Under the pieces are notes generated by a model. That model saw only the letters and a list, made by a program, of their open reading frames with translations, did no database searches and was not told where the DNA came from. A program made the position numbers and the translations under genes. From a virus, in IMG/VR virus record IMGVR_UViG_3300047358_000026, positions 1 to 31,342 of that record: a stretch of 31,342 nucleotides of DNA; one strand, written 5' to 3'. This document shows positions 1 through 30,886 of the stretch, piece by piece. Every line of letters starts with the position of its first letter. The first letter of the stretch is position 1.

Positions 1-1
1 A

Positions 2-184
2 GTGAAGGCTGGCGGTGTGAGCGCGTTGGCTCGGGCCATGCACACATATCCACAGCAGATTCAACATTGGCGGCGTAGTGGGGTACCATCTATACACGTG
101 GTTAAATTGTGCCAAGTGTCTGATGGCGAAGTGCAACCTTACGATTTGCGACCGGACATCTTTTTAGAAGGCTGGACGGTTTAA
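2..184 (+). CDS. YdaS/Cro-like HTH regulator, 5' truncated by window edge
   Basis: About 60 residues are visible. The stretch KAGGVSALARAM followed by QQIQHWRRSG and PSIHVVKLCQ is the helix-turn-helix pattern of the YdaS/Cro-like family of small phage DNA-binding proteins, in which residues near Q-IQHW contact operator DNA. Family members usually have a few residues before the KAGG motif (typically an acidic/hydrophobic helix), and the first in-frame GTG at position 2 has no room for a ribosome binding site, so the true start is probably upstream of the window. The end is a TAA at 182-184, followed by a terminator-like hairpin. Role inferred: repressor or early regulator; the DNA target is unknown. 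Confidence 0.7.
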   Translation: MKAGGVSALARAMHTYPQQIQHWRRSGVPSIHVVKLCQVSDGEVQPYDLRPDIFLEGWTV

Positions 185-190
185 GTTTGT

Positions 191-239
191 GGTCGGCCCT
201 CTTCCTCTCCTCCTCCCCTGTTGTGAGAGGGTCGGCCCT
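191..239. repeat. 10-bp direct repeat pair
   Basis: The decamer GGTCGGCCCT occurs at 191-200 and again at 230-239, 39 bases apart, flanking a pyrimidine-rich segment just after the regulator gene. The second copy forms one side of the terminator-like hairpin. It could be an operator pair or a by-product of a duplicated terminator. Confidence 0.5.
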
Positions 240-247
240 TTTTTTTT
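225..247 (+). terminator. Probable rho-independent terminator after the HTH gene
   Basis: A short hairpin with stem AGGG/CCCT around a TCGG tetraloop (227-238) is extended by weaker A-T and G-T pairs and is followed immediately by nine T residues (239-247). It sits about 40 bases after the stop of the regulator gene. The stem is short but the stable tetraloop and the T run make termination on the + strand plausible. Confidence 0.55.
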
Positions 248-528
248 GCTCCACTTCGGTGGCAGAGGCGCGAAAGCGTGCGGGTGGTTGACCCGTTGAG
301 CACAACGACCAAAGACAATTTGCTAGAAGCTGCGCGTCGTAGTGGGAACGCGGAACTGAACACTCGTTAATGGTGGCAAACCCTCTCCCCTATTTTTATA
401 TAGGCAGAGAGGTGGGGCAACGTATGGGCAGCGTGGAAGTGTCGAGTGAAAATACAGTCTAGCAATACAAACAGAGATTAGTAGGGGCCACCTAACCCCA
501 CTAAATGTCACGACGTGGGAGAGAGAAA
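248..528. other. Non-coding leader region with imperfect hairpins
   Basis: I found no convincing gene here. A GTG-started ORF at about 285-370 and leftward ORFs lack ribosome binding sites and recognisable content. Two structures are visible: an imperfect hairpin with arms CCTCTC (382-387) and GAGAGG (407-412) around an AT-rich TATTTTTATATA segment, and a hairpin at 479-503. The TATATA at 397-402 could be a weak -10 element, but its -35 partner at 374-379 is poor. It is the natural place for the promoter and control sites of the 529-3552 operon; none can be named firmly. Confidence 0.4.
479..503 (+). promoter_or_regulatory. Hairpin upstream of the first operon gene
   Basis: Arms TAGT-A-GGGG (479-487) and CCCC-ACTA (496-503) pair over eight base pairs with a single bulged A and an eight-base loop. 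It ends 14 bases before the ribosome binding site at 517-525, so it could be an operator, a translational control element or an mRNA-stabilising structure. Confidence 0.35.
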
Positions 529-846
529 ATGGATCGAATGGATCGCATCTTAGAAAGGTTGAGTGAACGTATAAATGAGTGGGAGGGGGCAAGTCGGGAA
601 GCGATTGAGGCAGAGACTAGTTTTAAGTCTTACGAGGCCGCCACTCAGAAGGCATTCATGGACGGCGGGGCAAGTGCTGCTAAGGCGCAGACAGAAACAA
701 GATCAACCGGAGAGTGGGCAAGCCACTACCGAGCAGTCGCGCAAGCCAGCTTAACCGCTGAGAAGTTGAAGAAGCAGATCATGCTCGGTCAGTTAATGTT
801 CGACGCAGAACGCACGAAGCAAGCCAACCAGCGGAGGATCGTCTGA
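529..846 (+). CDS. Hypothetical coiled-coil phage protein
   Basis: A 105-residue, charged, almost entirely helical protein. Its start MDRMDRILERLSERINEW has a heptad-like spacing of hydrophobic residues, and a second long helix covers the C-terminal half (EKLKKQIMLGQLMFDAER). I do not recognise a family. The ATG at 529 is chosen over the upstream in-frame ATG at 505 because GGGAGAGAG at 517-525 gives a good ribosome binding site at correct spacing for 529 only. It overlaps the next gene by one base (TGATG), so it heads the operon with the PP-loop protein and NinG. This suggests a role in phage DNA metabolism, but that is context only. Confidence 0.75.
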   Translation: MDRMDRILERLSERINEWEGASREAIEAETSFKSYEAATQKAFMDGGASAAKAQTETRSTGEWASHYRAVAQASLTAEKLKKQIMLGQLMFDAERTKQANQRRIV

Positions 847-1655
847 TGCTGACAGTGATTAGTTTAGGGGCGGGGGTGCAATCATCAGTCATGGCATTGA
901 TGGCGGCAAAGGGACAAATCACACCAATGCCTGACTGCGCGATTTTTGCTGACACGCAAGCGGAGCCAGACCACATCTACGAATGGCTAGATTGGTTGGA
1001 GACGCAGTTGCCATTCCCTATTTACAGGGTTACCGCTGGCAATCTTCGAGACGACCTGATCGCCAGTTCTGAAACCGGGGCTAGGGTGCCCAACCCTCCG
1101 CTGTTCGTGCAGTCGGCAAAAAGCGACGGTATGTTGTTTCGGCAATGCACATCTGATTACAAGATTCAGCCGATCTTTAAGAAGCTACGCGAATTGATTG
1201 GACTGAAGCCACGCCAAAGAGCGCCCAAAGAAGTCGCTGTCGAGCAGTGGATCGGCATTAGCCAAGATGAAATCCAACGCATGAAGATGGCTCCGCACAA
1301 ATGGATTGAGAACCGATGGCCTTTGCTTGAGAAGCGAATGAGCAGGCTGCATTGTTTGGAGTGGATGCGCGATAACGGATACAACGAACTGCCGCGAAAG
1401 AGCGCCTGCACCTTTTGTCCTTATCACGACAACGCGACGTGGCGCGACATGAAAGCAAACGATAAAAAGTCATGGACTGAAGCAGTAGTTGTAGACCATT
1501 TGATCCGAGACGGCATCAACAAAACAAGCGAGGGCAACAAGCTCTACTTGCATCGCAGCCGAGTGCCGCTGGACGAAGCTGATCTAAGCGATCCGGCAGA
1601 GGATCAAGAAACCTTTAGCTTCATGGATGAGTGTGAAGGGATGTGCGGAGTCTGA
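846..1655 (+). CDS. PAPS reductase-like PP-loop (adenine nucleotide alpha-hydrolase) protein
   Basis: A 269-residue cytoplasmic protein of the phosphoadenosine-phosphosulfate reductase/PP-loop ATPase superfamily. The N-terminal beta strand and loop, VISLGAGVQSSV at residues 4-15, is the modified PP-loop seen in phage members (GAGVQSS replacing the classic SGGKDS). Cysteines that could act in sulfur or metal chemistry lie at C101 (RQCTSDYK) and in a C188-x-x-C191 pair (ACTFCPYH). Family members activate substrates by adenylation or reduce sulfonucleotides; the phage members have no settled substrate and may modify nucleic acid or nucleotides. It is translationally coupled on both sides (TGATG at 844-848 and at 1653-1657). 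Confidence 0.85.
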   Translation: MLTVISLGAGVQSSVMALMAAKGQITPMPDCAIFADTQAEPDHIYEWLDWLETQLPFPIYRVTAGNLRDDLIASSETGARVPNPPLFVQSAKSDGMLFRQCTSDYKIQPIFKKLRELIGLKPRQRAPKEVAVEQWIGISQDEIQRMKMAPHKWIENRWPLLEKRMSRLHCLEWMRDNGYNELPRKSACTFCPYHDNATWRDMKANDKKSWTEAVVVDHLIRDGINKTSEGNKLYLHRSRVPLDEADLSDPAEDQETFSFMDECEGMCGV

Positions 1656-4000: not shown

Positions 4001-4214
4001 CCTCTCCTATCGTGTATCCGTTGTGGCCTACTCGGCGGTACATGCCGCTGTAGTCGCCGTTGCCGTGAATTACGATGGCGTCAGCTCCGGTTTCTGTCTC
4101 TCGTATCCATGCAAGACGCCACTCGACTTCCCAGCCAGCAACGCTGCCGTACAACGCCATTGTGCCCAATACGAATCCCTTTGGGCCGGGCTGTAGTTTG
4201 ATGTCGTTGGTCAT
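3993..4214 (-). CDS. Small hypothetical protein, first gene of leftward operon
   Basis: A 73-residue protein, MTNDIKLQPGPKGFVLGT to a C-terminus HNGYTIGEAA, with alternating hydrophobic strands and glycine turns (DAIVIHGNGDYSGMY), suggesting a small beta-sheet fold. No family recognised. The start is firm: AGGAGATCGAC directly precedes the ATG on the - strand. A strong sigma70-type promoter lies 25 bases further upstream, so this gene is probably expressed early by host RNA polymerase. Confidence 0.75.
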   Translation of the reverse strand: MTNDIKLQPGPKGFVLGTMALYGSVAGWEVEWRLAWIRETETGADAIVIHGNGDYSGMYRRVGHNGYTIGEAA

Positions 4215-4238
4215 GTCGATCTCCTGTTGTGTGAAGCC

Positions 4239-4267
4239 ATATTAAAAAGAAAGTTTTCAAGTGTCAA
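4239..4267 (-). promoter_or_regulatory. Near-consensus sigma70 promoter for the leftward operon
   Basis: Read on the - strand: TTGACA (4267-4262), a 17-base AT-rich spacer, then TAATAT (4244-4239). The -35 is a perfect match, the -10 matches four of six and the spacing is ideal. Transcription would begin near 4232 and enter the 73-aa gene at 4214. It is the strongest promoter seen in the window. Confidence 0.8.
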
Positions 4268-4286
4268 GCGATATAACAAAAAAAAG

Positions 4287-4316
4287 TTAAATTAATTTCG
4301 CAGGGTGTTGTAGAAT
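4287..4316 (+). promoter_or_regulatory. Possible rightward promoter for the packaging genes
   Basis: TAGAAT at 4311-4316 is a good -10 match; the best -35 candidate, TTAAAT at 4287-4292 with an 18-base spacer, is weak. An AT-rich tract with an A run (4277-4285) lies just upstream and could act as an UP element. The position, between the divergent leftward operon and the first packaging gene, supports a promoter here, but the boxes are only moderate. Confidence 0.35.
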
Positions 4317-4357
4317 AGAGCTTGCAATCCGTTAATCATTCGTGGTATTTGGCGCGC

Positions 4358-4537
4358 ATGACAAAGACAAAAGACCTCAGAGGCAGTCTGACGAAAACTG
4401 ACCAGCAACGACATTTTCCTGAGCTATTCGGTGGTAAGGGCTCGCGTCCAAGAATCGCCGGAAGGCTGAACAACAACTCACCTGCCTATCAAGATGGGTG
4501 GGAGCGCATCTTTGGGGGGAAGCATGGCGAAGACTAG
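4358..4537 (+). CDS. Small hypothetical protein upstream of the terminase genes
   Basis: A 59-residue basic protein starting MTKTKDLRGSLTKTDQ and ending RIFGGKHGED, rich in Arg, Lys, Asn and Gly. ATG 4358 is used; a TTG at 4322 would add 12 residues and neither start has a strong ribosome binding site, which fits a first gene read from a short leader. It overlaps the next gene by 14 bases. Small basic proteins in this place in podoviruses have no agreed function; a DNA-binding or packaging accessory role is possible only by context. Confidence 0.6.
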   Translation: MTKTKDLRGSLTKTDQQRHFPELFGGKGSRPRIAGRLNNNSPAYQDGWERIFGGKHGED

Positions 4538-28050: not shown

Positions 28051-28503
28051 ATGGTTCTTGAGCTAGGGGCTATCATCAGTGGCCTTAACATGGCCGCCTC
28101 TGCTCTAAACAAAACGGCTCAAGCAACTCAAGACCTCAGCCAGATCAGTGGCTACCTATCCGCACTAGCCGAGGGTCAGCACGATCTACAAAGACTACAA
28201 AACACCAAGACACTCAGCGCAGCCGATGCTGTCAAAGCGCAGTTAGCGAAGAAGGAAGCTGACGATGCGTTGGCACAAGTGCGCGAGGCATTCCTTTATT
28301 CGGGCAACGGTCAGTTGTGGGACGATGCGATGAAGGCAATGGCCGAGGCTCGCAAGGCTAGGGCTGCTGAGATCCGCCAGTTGGAGTTGGCTAGAAAGCG
28401 CAGGAAGAAAGAGCTAACCCAGCTAGCCATTGTCATCGCTGTCTCTGTTGGCCTCATCCCCATCGCTATCATGCTCGCTATCTGGCTGATCTTCCAGATA
28501 TGA
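28051..28503 (+). CDS. C-terminally anchored coiled-coil membrane protein; marine-phage type, lysis-associated
   Basis: A 150-residue protein: a long, mostly helical part (LGAIISGLNMAASALNKTA, LSAADAVKAQLAKKEADD) and the motif YSGNGQLWDDAMKAMAEARK, a basic KRRKKE stop-transfer-like patch, and a C-terminal hydrophobic segment (LTQLAIVIAVSVGLIPIAIM, extending to residue 149). It resembles a conserved family in marine phages lying near lysis genes. With a coiled coil and terminal membrane span it might act like a spanin, but a periplasmic orientation cannot be proven. It starts three bases after the endolysin stop. Confidence 0.72.
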   Translation: MVLELGAIISGLNMAASALNKTAQATQDLSQISGYLSALAEGQHDLQRLQNTKTLSAADAVKAQLAKKEADDALAQVREAFLYSGNGQLWDDAMKAMAEARKARAAEIRQLELARKRRKKELTQLAIVIAVSVGLIPIAIMLAIWLIFQI

Positions 28504-28589: not shown

Positions 28590-28867
28590 GCTAGGTTCGT
28601 CGGCGCAGGCCACGATGTCCGCTTAACTAGCAGGTGAATCTTGTAGCGTGTCACCTTCAGTTCGTCCGCAATCCACCGAGTGGTCTTTTTTTGACGTTGC
28701 CATTCCCATATCTGCCGCTTGGTTGCCTCACTGAACGGGGCGCTGACGTTGGCTAACCTGTAATCGAGATACTCACGCTGCAGTCTTTCTTGCGCTTTGA
28801 TGGCTTTGTAAAACAAGTCTACCGGCTCGTCTTGAAGTTCGTGTGTCTCTCGTGGCACTTCTTGCAT
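28586..28867 (-). CDS. Small HTH protein
   Basis: A 93-residue charged protein. Residues 50-84 carry the DNA-binding part: TKRQIWEWQRQKKTT, then RWIADELKVTRYKIHLLVKR, a clear helix-turn-helix with the recognition helix at KVTRYKIH. The N-terminal half (VDLFYKAIKAQERLQREYLD) is helical. The ATG at 28867 overlaps the upstream gene by 49 bases; a TTG at 28816, just after the upstream stop, would begin at residue 18 and is a fair alternative. Being the last gene of the leftward operon, it may regulate replication or late genes. Confidence 0.7.
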   Translation of the reverse strand: MQEVPRETHELQDEPVDLFYKAIKAQERLQREYLDYRLANVSAPFSEATKRQIWEWQRQKKTTRWIADELKVTRYKIHLLVKRTSWPAPTNLA

Positions 28868-29010
28868 CGGCGCTGGCTACCCTTGGTCATCTCCGCTGTG
28901 GGGAATAGGTTCTTACAATTCAGGCAGACGTTCAAGTCGCGTGGCACATTCGATGGTAGCTGCTGAATCTCACCACCGTTGGCTAAGAATTCTTTGAGTG
29001 CGTCGTTCAT
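28819..29010 (-). CDS. Small zinc-ribbon-like protein
   Basis: A 63-residue protein with two CxxC pairs, CLNCKNLFP and RRCKKCHERH, spaced about 17 residues apart, typical of a zinc ribbon in nucleic-acid-binding proteins. The N-terminal part is a helix (NDALKEFLANGGEIQ). AAGGAAAACCG precedes the ATG and it overlaps the upstream stop as ATGA. Function unknown; a role with the replication proteins is suggested by the operon. Confidence 0.72.
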   Translation of the reverse strand: MNDALKEFLANGGEIQQLPSNVPRDLNVCLNCKNLFPTAEMTKGSQRRCKKCHERHTNFKTSR

Positions 29011-29468
29011 CGGTTTTCCTTTTGGACAATGGCAAAGCCTACGTTTCCTAGCTTAGATTTAATGGGGAACTGCGGGCCGAGCATGTCATCAACCCGGTCA
29101 ACCTCCTGTTTAATCCACGACGGGAGAGGGTCAGGACACGGCACTGGCTTACCGTTGTACTCCACGCCATGCTTGTGCTCGAGGTAGCGCGTAGCTATTT
29201 CTTCGCTCATGCTAGTTTTATTGGTCTTGCCCTCGCCTCCCTCCGTCTTGCTCGTCGATAGCTTGTTGAGCTTCTTGCGAATGTCGGCGGGTGATGGGAA
29301 CGTCGATTGCTCCTCAGTCAACTGACCTAGGGCTTCGGTCATCATCGTGACACTCTCCCGCGAAAACGCTTGGTAATGAACCTTCCCAAGCTCAGGCCAA
29401 TCTCTTTGCTTAAACGGGTGAAGGGCAAACCATTGCCCGTAGAGTGCTGTGAATTCGTGCTTATCCAT
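29007..29468 (-). CDS. Hypothetical replication-region protein
   Basis: A 153-residue protein. The first 70 residues (EFTALYGQWFALHPFKQRDW, YQAFSRESVTMMTEALGQL, then STFPSPADIRKKL) have the helical shape and 'FPs-aeI---l' ending seen in phage helicase-loader or replication-accessory proteins. A linker rich in Lys, Thr and Ser follows and a C-terminal part with PDPLPSWIKQEVDRVDD. The identification is weak. AAGGAAC before the ATG is the ribosome binding site. It sits between the SSB-tailed gene and the zinc protein, after a 145-base gap. Confidence 0.7.
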   Translation of the reverse strand: MDKHEFTALYGQWFALHPFKQRDWPELGKVHYQAFSRESVTMMTEALGQLTEEQSTFPSPADIRKKLNKLSTSKTEGGEGKTNKTSMSEEIATRYLEHKHGVEYNGKPVPCPDPLPSWIKQEVDRVDDMLGPQFPIKSKLGNVGFAIVQKENR

Positions 29469-29613: not shown

Positions 29614-29892
29614 TCAGAAAGGTATGTCCTCGTCCAGACTCTCGAATGGATTAGACTGCGCTGGCTGCGACGGTCGCGCTCGGTTCGGGTCTGGCTTCCA
29701 AGTATCTACCTCGGCGTACCACTTACCCGACTTAGCCTCCTTTACCTGCAAGTTGATCCATTCCTCCGACTGGCCTTGCAGCCAAGCCATGACTTCCTGC
29801 CGCTTTATGCTGAGTCCAAACTTAACGAAGTCGGGAGCCTTGTCGCTTGGTGGCTTCACATACAAGCCCTGCGCGAATACTTTATCTGTCAT
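29614..29892 (-). CDS. Small SSB-tailed protein (probable ssDNA-binding protein)
   Basis: A 92-residue protein. Its C-terminus ESLDEDIPF matches the acidic tip of bacterial SSB (DDDIPF), which recruits partner enzymes. A Pro/Arg/Gln/Ser-rich linker (DPNRARPSQPAQSNP) precedes it, and the body (VFAQGLYVKPPSDKAPDFVK, WINLQVKEAKSGKWYAEVDT) is a beta-rich fold of about 65 residues, shorter than a normal SSB OB domain. It is best seen as an ssDNA-binding protein used with the Rad52-like annealing protein. It overlaps the upstream stop as ATGA; GAGGTTTGT precedes the start. Confidence 0.78.
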   Translation of the reverse strand: MTDKVFAQGLYVKPPSDKAPDFVKFGLSIKRQEVMAWLQGQSEEWINLQVKEAKSGKWYAEVDTWKPDPNRARPSQPAQSNPFESLDEDIPF

Positions 29893-30278
29893 ACAAACCT
29901 CAAAATAATGGTGGTGAGTGCGGCGGTGCCTGCCGCGATGGATGCGATCATAATAATCGCTGTTGAGTCTAACTGTGTAAGTCCCTCAGAAGGGGGTAAT
30001 TCTGCGCTCTCAGGCGTTTCCTCCACAGTGGGAGGGGTTGGTAAAGGGTCAGAGAAAATCACGTCCTCGTGCCCCACAACCACAAATTTCTTCGGGTTGT
30101 GTTCTGATCGCACAAGCTGATTCCGCTGCACCATATTACTGAGGGTTTTCTTCACTTGGTCTTTCGACATCCGAACACTGCGTTCCCGCAAGCGCGAGTG
30201 GATGCCGTTATAGGCGAGTGGCCCGTGGGCCTTGACGATTAAATAGATCTCCTTCGAGAATCCATGTTTAGGTTTCAT
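29889..30278 (-). CDS. Winged-helix protein with C-terminal membrane anchor
   Basis: A 129-residue protein with an odd architecture. Residues 1-70 form a winged helix-turn-helix (SKEIYLIVKAHGPLAYNGIH, SRLRERSVRMSKDQVKKTL, NPKKFVVVGHE). Residues 72-103 are a Pro/Glu-rich linker. Residues 106-128 (TAIIMIASIAAGTAALTTII) are one hydrophobic span. The predicted topology is a cytoplasmic DNA-binding domain tied to the inner membrane. It lies between the annealing protein and the SSB-tailed protein in a tightly overlapping operon. A part in anchoring or segregating replicating DNA is possible; function unknown. Confidence 0.75.
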   Translation of the reverse strand: MKPKHGFSKEIYLIVKAHGPLAYNGIHSRLRERSVRMSKDQVKKTLSNMVQRNQLVRSEHNPKKFVVVGHEDVIFSDPLPTPPTVEETPESAELPPSEGLTQLDSTAIIMIASIAAGTAALTTIILRFV

Positions 30279-30886
30279 TGCTGGTTCTCCTTCACAGTTT
30301 TATTGATGTATCTTCGGGTCTGGCTACCAAGCAGTGACCACGTCGCAACGGTTCGTTCCTGATCGGTCACAAGGCTGGCCCAGATCTCTAGGATTTTTGC
30401 GTTGTTCTCGCTCTGTACTGCCTGCGCGAGTTCGTTTGCCAACAGCTTGTCGGCTTCGTTTGGTACGGTGGCCGGATCTTCTGACTGAACGTCAGCCATA
30501 ACGCCACGGCGCTTGTCGAATTGCTCGGGTGTCATGCGCGAGTCCGAGTACAGATACCGAGCGATACCGAAGGACACAGCGGCGCGTTTGAATGCGTCAC
30601 TGAACCCGCCTTTGTCGCCTTCGATTGAGGTCTCACCGGCACCGTCTGACTTGGCGATCCACTCCCCGTCTATTTTCACAGAGAGGGTGCAACAGTAGTT
30701 GCCACACACTTCCGAGAAATGTGTCTGCCAGTTCTCAGTACCGACAACTTCGTCCAAACGGTTCTGGACTTGGCGGGCATCAACGTAGGACAGCATCTTG
30801 CCGCCCGGCCCTTTACGTTCTTTCACTTCTCCCTTAGCCCACGGCCTACTGAGCGCGTGGTAAATTTCACTTGCAGTTGATTGCAT
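30275..30886 (-). CDS. Rad52/Rad22-family ssDNA annealing protein
   Basis: A 203-residue protein. The N-terminal portion, SYVDARQVQNRLDEVVG then NWQTHF, and the signature GDKGGFSDAFKRAAVSFG followed by IARYLY (residues 90-113) are those of phage Rad52/Rad22 single-strand annealing proteins, which form rings on ssDNA and anneal complementary strands. The C-terminal third is variable and acidic. It is encoded beside the SSB-tailed protein and on the other strand from NinG, giving a complete recombination set (annealing, ssDNA binding, branch cutting). The ATG at 30886 lies inside the preceding gene's end (20-base overlap). Confidence 0.9.
   Translation of the reverse strand: MQSTASEIYHALSRPWAKGEVKERKGPGGKMLSYVDARQVQNRLDEVVGTENWQTHFSEVCGNYCCTLSVKIDGEWIAKSDGAGETSIEGDKGGFSDAFKRAAVSFGIARYLYSDSRMTPEQFDKRRGVMADVQSEDPATVPNEADKLLANELAQAVQSENNAKILEIWASLVTDQERTVATWSLLGSQTRRYINKTVKENQQ

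Follow-up and report, generated by a model that had tools for sequence, protein, structure and literature searches.

Gene and operon neighbors

The window, by which we mean the whole stretch of DNA analyzed (31,342 bases, IMG/VR virus record IMGVR_UViG_3300047358_000026), carries on its minus strand, at 29889–30278, a gene with an ATG start that encodes a protein of 129 amino acids consisting of a winged helix, a linker, and a predicted C-terminal membrane span. Its upstream operon partner (30275–30886, minus strand) encodes a Rad52-like single-strand annealing protein of 203 amino acids (PF04098, E 5e-17; phrog_1097, E 4e-35). Its downstream partner (29614–29892, minus strand) encodes an SSB-like protein of 92 amino acids, recognized by the tail LDEDIPF together with a match to phrog_378 (E 0.012). 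The next operon gene in the relatives that were read corresponds to 29007–29468 (minus strand) and encodes a 153-amino-acid protein of unassigned function, for which profile searches gave no family match at a useful E-value. On the minus strand, the span-protein gene shares a 4-nt ATGA overlap with the annealing-protein gene (30275–30278), a −4 spacing found likewise in most relatives, and another with the SSB-like gene (29889–29892). Overlaps of this kind at both gene ends are a usual sign of translational coupling and suggest that the gene is coupled to both neighbors. The original prediction, which had placed the gene between the Rad52-like and SSB-tailed genes, was borne out.

Forty-two distinct members of the family were found, all on contigs of metagenomic viruses and one of them truncated by the contig end; the sequences are distinct but should not be counted as independent events, and a portion came to light via neighboring genes. 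A search with the gene family itself gave 25 loci, all of which adjoin an annealing gene, and each tested record with the gene had a single copy. Profile search of bacterial genome contigs with the winged-helix alignment yielded no relatives, and three members used as queries gave no significant match among isolated phages, where the lone match at E 0.8 was regarded as chance. Nothing credible was found for the window protein among solved structures by sequence. There was no significant match in PHROGs (best E 0.15 for the window protein and 0.0011 for any relative tested) or in NCBIfam (best E 0.0033, with incoherent families), and PADLOC gave none for the window protein and at best E 0.0019 (15–16 bits) for its relatives. 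Judged by these searches, and winged-helix fold aside, the protein has no credible library match and represents a new family whose architecture is new, although devices of this kind are known.

Winged helix, linker, and C-terminal span

An AlphaFold2 model of the window protein, built with 19 relatives, contained a winged-helix domain at residues 1–68 (30075–30278, minus strand; pLDDT 87–95) with helices at residues 7–18, 23–32, and 39–51 and strands at 55–57 and 64–67, and the same winged helix was predicted for the divergent member L075. In a VIA-align fold search, the winged helix-turn-helix domains of MecI (Z 10.8) and BlaI (Z 10.7) ranked at the top, with an rmsd of 2.0 over 67–68 aligned residues, followed by linker histone, cullin WHB, Fur, and Z-DNA-binding domains with nearly tied scores; this near tie supports the fold, not any function. 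Weak profile matches converged on winged-helix families, namely, Penicillinase_R (12 of 19 members), TrmB, FUR, Z-alpha, and TBPIP. All winged-helix profile matches of the window protein were below the cut-off, and one relative (L062) was above that of the RNase R winged-helix model (23.7 vs. 21.4 bits). The N-terminal 70 residues of the 19 members counted contained 14–17 Lys/Arg and 4–7 Asp/Glu. The dN/dS of the winged helix, like the other dN/dS values below a pooled pairwise average over related sequences, was 0.11 for the ten closest sequences and 0.13 across all 19, and by this measure the domain is under purifying selection.

The winged helix is followed by a disordered Pro/Thr/acidic linker (residues 69–103; 29970–30074, minus strand), in which the pLDDT fell to about 40–45; residues 71–105 of the model were unstructured. 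The length of the linker differs among relatives, whose proteins exceed that of the window by as many as 43 residues in total, and its dN/dS in the ten closest sequences was about 1.0, an about neutral value without purifying selection, taken from a segment with few synonymous sites. Within the linker, the motif E-[KE]-T-P-E (residues 86–90; 30009–30023, minus strand) was conserved across the family, with KTPE exact in 27 of 34 members and E or D at the first position of the motif. This conserved KTPE motif may bind a partner.

The C-terminal tail (residues 104–129; 29892–29969, minus strand) contains a single predicted membrane span with its core at residues 108–126, the 19-residue stretch of peak hydropathy (mean 2.22). 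When the window protein was shuffled 100,000 times, this value was matched at the C-terminus in 86 cases and anywhere in 658. Stronger evidence than the shuffles came from the family: a C-terminal span with a mean of at least 1.6 was kept in all 41 complete distinct relatives, even at winged-helix identity down to about 30%, compared with 30 of 771 background ORFs from the same loci; homologues lacking the span, which the original prediction had named as evidence against itself, were therefore not found among these relatives. Charged and strongly polar residues are absent from the 18–23 residues of the span, which ends 3–7 residues before the C-terminus (in the window protein, ~20 uncharged hydrophobic residues that stop three residues short of it). 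The tail helix of the window protein (residues 106–128) was modeled with low pLDDT, and in L075 the tail formed one continuous 24-residue helix (residues 108–131; pLDDT about 72). The span is rich in Ala, Gly, Thr, and Ser, and approximate biological-scale insertion sums ranged from −2.0 to +3.7 across members. An amphipathic surface helix was not supported for the tail, because the hydrophobic moment is low (0.04–0.21) and charges are absent. The order of winged helix, linker, and span proposed in the original prediction, together with its coordinates for the span, agreed with both the AlphaFold2 model and the hydropathy.

The dN/dS of the tail was 0.125 in the ten closest sequences, and within this close group selection on the tail is, as estimated from codons, as strong as that on the folded domain. 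The higher value of 0.36 across all 19 sequences arose because whole tails were replaced. Constraint on the tail by an overlapping gene was rejected, since the overlap is just 4 nt and synonymous sites in the tail diverge at a normal level (dS about 0.33).

Changing partners and exchanged domains

An annealing-protein gene lay directly upstream in all 40 distinct members with visible upstream sequence; it was Rad52-like in six of them and ERF-like (PF04404, E 2e-20) in the other 34. A specific partnership with the Rad52-like protein was rejected, since ERF freely takes its place. Downstream, the SSB-like family of the window was present in 36 of 41 members and a different SSB-like protein ending in EDIPF (phrog_18154, E 5e-5) in the other five, and the SSB-like slot of L018 and L032 held a further, strongly divergent type ending in DDIPF. 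In the loci compared, the winged-helix/span gene is thus constant while two annealing and three SSB-like families vary around it. As a separate observation, the proteins of the SSB-like slot (29614–29892, minus strand, in the window, and those of L018, L032, L071, L085, L097, and L099) have at least three very different N-terminal types, all tipped with [DE]DIPF, and their SSB profile matches are weak (phrog_378, E 0.012; phrog_18154, E 5e-5).

The gene was absent from L043–L050, where the Rad52-like gene is joined straight to the SSB gene, and no copy was found elsewhere in the records of L045 and L049 (30.2 and 31.2 kb). The ERF gene of L081 and L096 abuts the SSB-like gene directly. In L067 and L092, the slot between the ERF and SSB-like genes is occupied by a winged-helix-like protein of 98 amino acids without a span (L067, 3924–4220), which matched Penicillinase_R (E 0.0017) and phrog_1123 (E 7e-9). 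As far as these gene orders indicate, the span-protein gene is accessory and dispensable.

Comparison of related loci showed the protein to be modular. Most of a 4.4-kb stretch is about 95% identical between L018 and L062, but the identity breaks off inside the winged-helix codons and resumes at the linker, so that in the proteins the winged helices are 43% identical and the linker motif region and span are identical; their upstream regions are also about 95% identical, except for one small ORF in L018 only. Similarly, the linker and span of L076 and L029 are 98% identical and the winged helices 41%. The reverse was found for L018 and L035, whose winged helices are 91% identical and whose linkers and spans are 32% identical, with both spans still hydrophobic. 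According to these alignments, exchange at one end of the protein does not depend on exchange at the other, and the winged helix alone can be swapped. Such natural exchange provides ready-made variants for probing specificity.

Proposed role, alternatives, and phage context

The best-supported explanation, which we advance tentatively, is that the protein is a tail-anchored adaptor that holds DNA at the inner membrane during phage replication or recombination. An early-type operon would yield the protein in translational coupling with the annealing and SSB-like proteins, the C-terminal span would be inserted into the inner membrane, leaving the N-terminus on the cytoplasmic side, and the basic winged helix, tethered by a flexible stretch of some 35 or more residues, would grip DNA, most likely that of the phage, and hold it at the membrane, where replication and recombination intermediates would be concentrated. 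From the architecture, its conservation, the selection acting on winged helix and span, and the position in the operon, all read from the sequences, we infer the membrane insertion, the topology, the binding of DNA, and the identity of this DNA as the phage's own. The presence of the DNA-binding repressors MecI and BlaI among the top structural matches favors a DNA tether, and the hydrophobicity of the span, kept although its sequence was replaced between L018 and L035, argues for a membrane tether. Because close relatives lack the gene, tethering would be an improvement of an existing process and not essential to it. The variation of the partner families makes a specific complex with either the annealing or the SSB-like protein unlikely, and the alternation of Rad52-like and ERF proteins upstream makes tethering of the annealing complex, which had also been proposed, less likely than tethering of DNA. 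Other results count against the adaptor: relatives with matching flanking genes do without it, the soluble winged helix in the slot of L067 and L092 suggests that anchoring is not always needed there, and the swap of the winged-helix cassette next to a directly upstream region that remains about 95% identical is not predicted by an adaptor for one fixed phage site. Winged helices can bind proteins as well, and the rank of cullin WHB domains, about level with the repressors in the fold searches, counts against a DNA-only reading.

Among known systems, the window protein would work most like p16.7 of phage phi29, as an analogue and not a homologue; both are small phage proteins that combine a membrane anchor with a nucleic-acid-binding part, anchoring and binding being predictions for the window protein. 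p16.7 has its membrane span at the N-terminus, followed by a C-terminal nucleic-acid-binding domain of a different DNA-binding fold, whereas the order is reversed in the window family, with the winged helix N-terminal and the span C-terminal in 41 of 41 members. Replication of phi29 is protein-primed, and neither a terminal protein nor a DNA polymerase was recognized among the window proteins examined. The integral membrane protein p16.7 interacts with the terminal protein and single-stranded DNA, and its proposed role is to recruit replicating DNA to the membrane (PMC4974454). Phage membrane proteins that organize DNA replication thus have precedents in p16.7 and p1 of phi29 (PMC4974454), and what is new here is the family and its architecture; the "new replication-centre anchor" of the original prediction is sensible as a hypothesis but claims more than the data show.

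The same features could belong to a factor of host takeover, counter-defense, or superinfection exclusion, in which a membrane-held winged helix, as the specificity part, captures a host protein, a defense component, or foreign DNA. The accessory presence of the gene and the exchange of the winged helix only, as between L018 and L062, are typical traits of an arms race, and membrane-anchored nucleic-acid-binding proteins of phage defense, AbiP and PdpSau, are known (PMC10127798). PdpSau, for example, is a prophage-borne resistance gene product of 278 amino acids with an N-terminal membrane helix and an OB-like fold (PMC10127798). In contrast, the phage of the window showed no integrase, the gene belongs to a replication/recombination operon, its slot is fixed between two DNA-metabolism genes in every member instead of lying amid scattered accessory genes, and PADLOC gave no match of worth; we consider this explanation possible but rather unlikely. 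A further, speculative, and somewhat more doubtful idea suggested by the exchanges is a modular membrane tether, in which a swapped winged-helix cassette is combined with a fixed KTPE linker and tail anchor, so that one docking device within the replication/recombination operon would be re-aimed at other DNA or host targets.

A membrane-tethered transcription regulator acting on phage or host promoters as a one-component system like ToxR and CadC would share the N-terminal cytoplasmic winged helix and the single span after it, although the topology is here a predicted one, and the winged helix is of the repressor type, with weak matches to Penicillinase_R, MarR, TrmB, and FUR. Regulators of the ToxR/CadC kind have a periplasmic sensor domain; the window family, however, has just 3–7 residues past the uncharged run and no such sensor, and no Pfam match to the OmpR-type winged helix (Trans_reg_C) was found among members, where a missing weak match is no exclusion. 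The likeness to MecI and BlaI extends to the fold (MecI, Z 10.8 over 68 aligned residues, rmsd 2.0), but the window protein scored 16.9 bits against Penicillinase_R (PF03965), under the Pfam gathering cut-off of 22.6, with 9% identity, and the C-terminal helical dimerization part of these repressors is replaced by the disordered linker and hydrophobic span. Moreover, the constancy of the upstream region of L018 and L062 despite the winged-helix swap makes the promoter of the operon itself unlikely as the sole target, and relatives have a separate YdaS/Cro-like repressor divergent to the operon. We therefore regard a tethered regulator as unlikely. Finally, the protein might be soluble, with the hydrophobic tail serving oligomerization, turnover, or chaperone recognition instead of membrane insertion. 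The predicted insertion of the Ala/Gly/Thr/Ser-rich span is marginal in some members, AlphaFold2 confidence is low for the tail helix of the window protein, and the two relatives with a soluble winged helix in the slot agree with this possibility, but an uncharged stretch of 18–23 residues with a low moment in 41 of 41 members and a hydrophobicity that survives replacement of the tail sequence make it quite improbable.

The relatives lie on contigs of up to 28–31 kb. Upstream of their operon they have the genes that the window carries at its left end, on the other strand, and the window record therefore looks nearly complete. The structural genes are of the T7-like podovirus type, and the portal is about 30% identical to the head-tail connectors of Methylophilales phage MEP301 and small Vibrio podoviruses; from these nearest isolates, the phage family is presumably marine. 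No DNA polymerase, helicase, or primase was matched among the window proteins scanned, a subset of the ORFs. To our knowledge, the layout of replication and recombination in phages without a recognized DNA polymerase of their own is poorly known beyond phi29 and the nucleus-forming jumbo phages, and a conserved, unnamed, single-copy, putatively tail-anchored winged-helix protein between an annealing protein and an SSB offers a small entry point that lends itself to testing.

The YdaS/Cro-like repressor (PF15943, E 6e-13) lies divergent to the operon, at 4131–4367 (minus strand) in L045 and in the control regions of L016 and L024; in the window, its place would be in the gap that separates the contig ends. 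A search of the divergent control region for operators and iterons gave scattered short repeats only and no obvious operator. The same region of relatives contains a block of several hundred bases that is conserved and seems to be non-coding, with the hairpin-like sequence AGTGGGGTTTGGTGACCCACTA (L024, 4160–4530; L030, 3600–3970; L017, 3080–3480; candidate window site, 1–500, plus strand), and Rfam gave no match at the gathering score for the window, L024, or L017. The window also encodes a PAPS-reductase-like protein (846–1655, plus strand; phrog_424, E 8e-48) adjoining an NinG/HNH-like gene; the PAPS-reductase-like protein was not among the ORFs listed at the corresponding place in L024, L034, L045, and L049. 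Near the lysis genes, a 150-amino-acid protein (28051–28503, plus strand; phrog_32327, function unassigned) has a strong C-terminal hydrophobic span. A protein of 63 amino acids (28819–29010, minus strand) combines a Cys4 zinc-finger-like part with an N-terminus that matches the RNA-polymerase-binding motif of SutA (PF20661, E 7e-6, just under the cut-off), and is possibly a modulator of host RNA polymerase.
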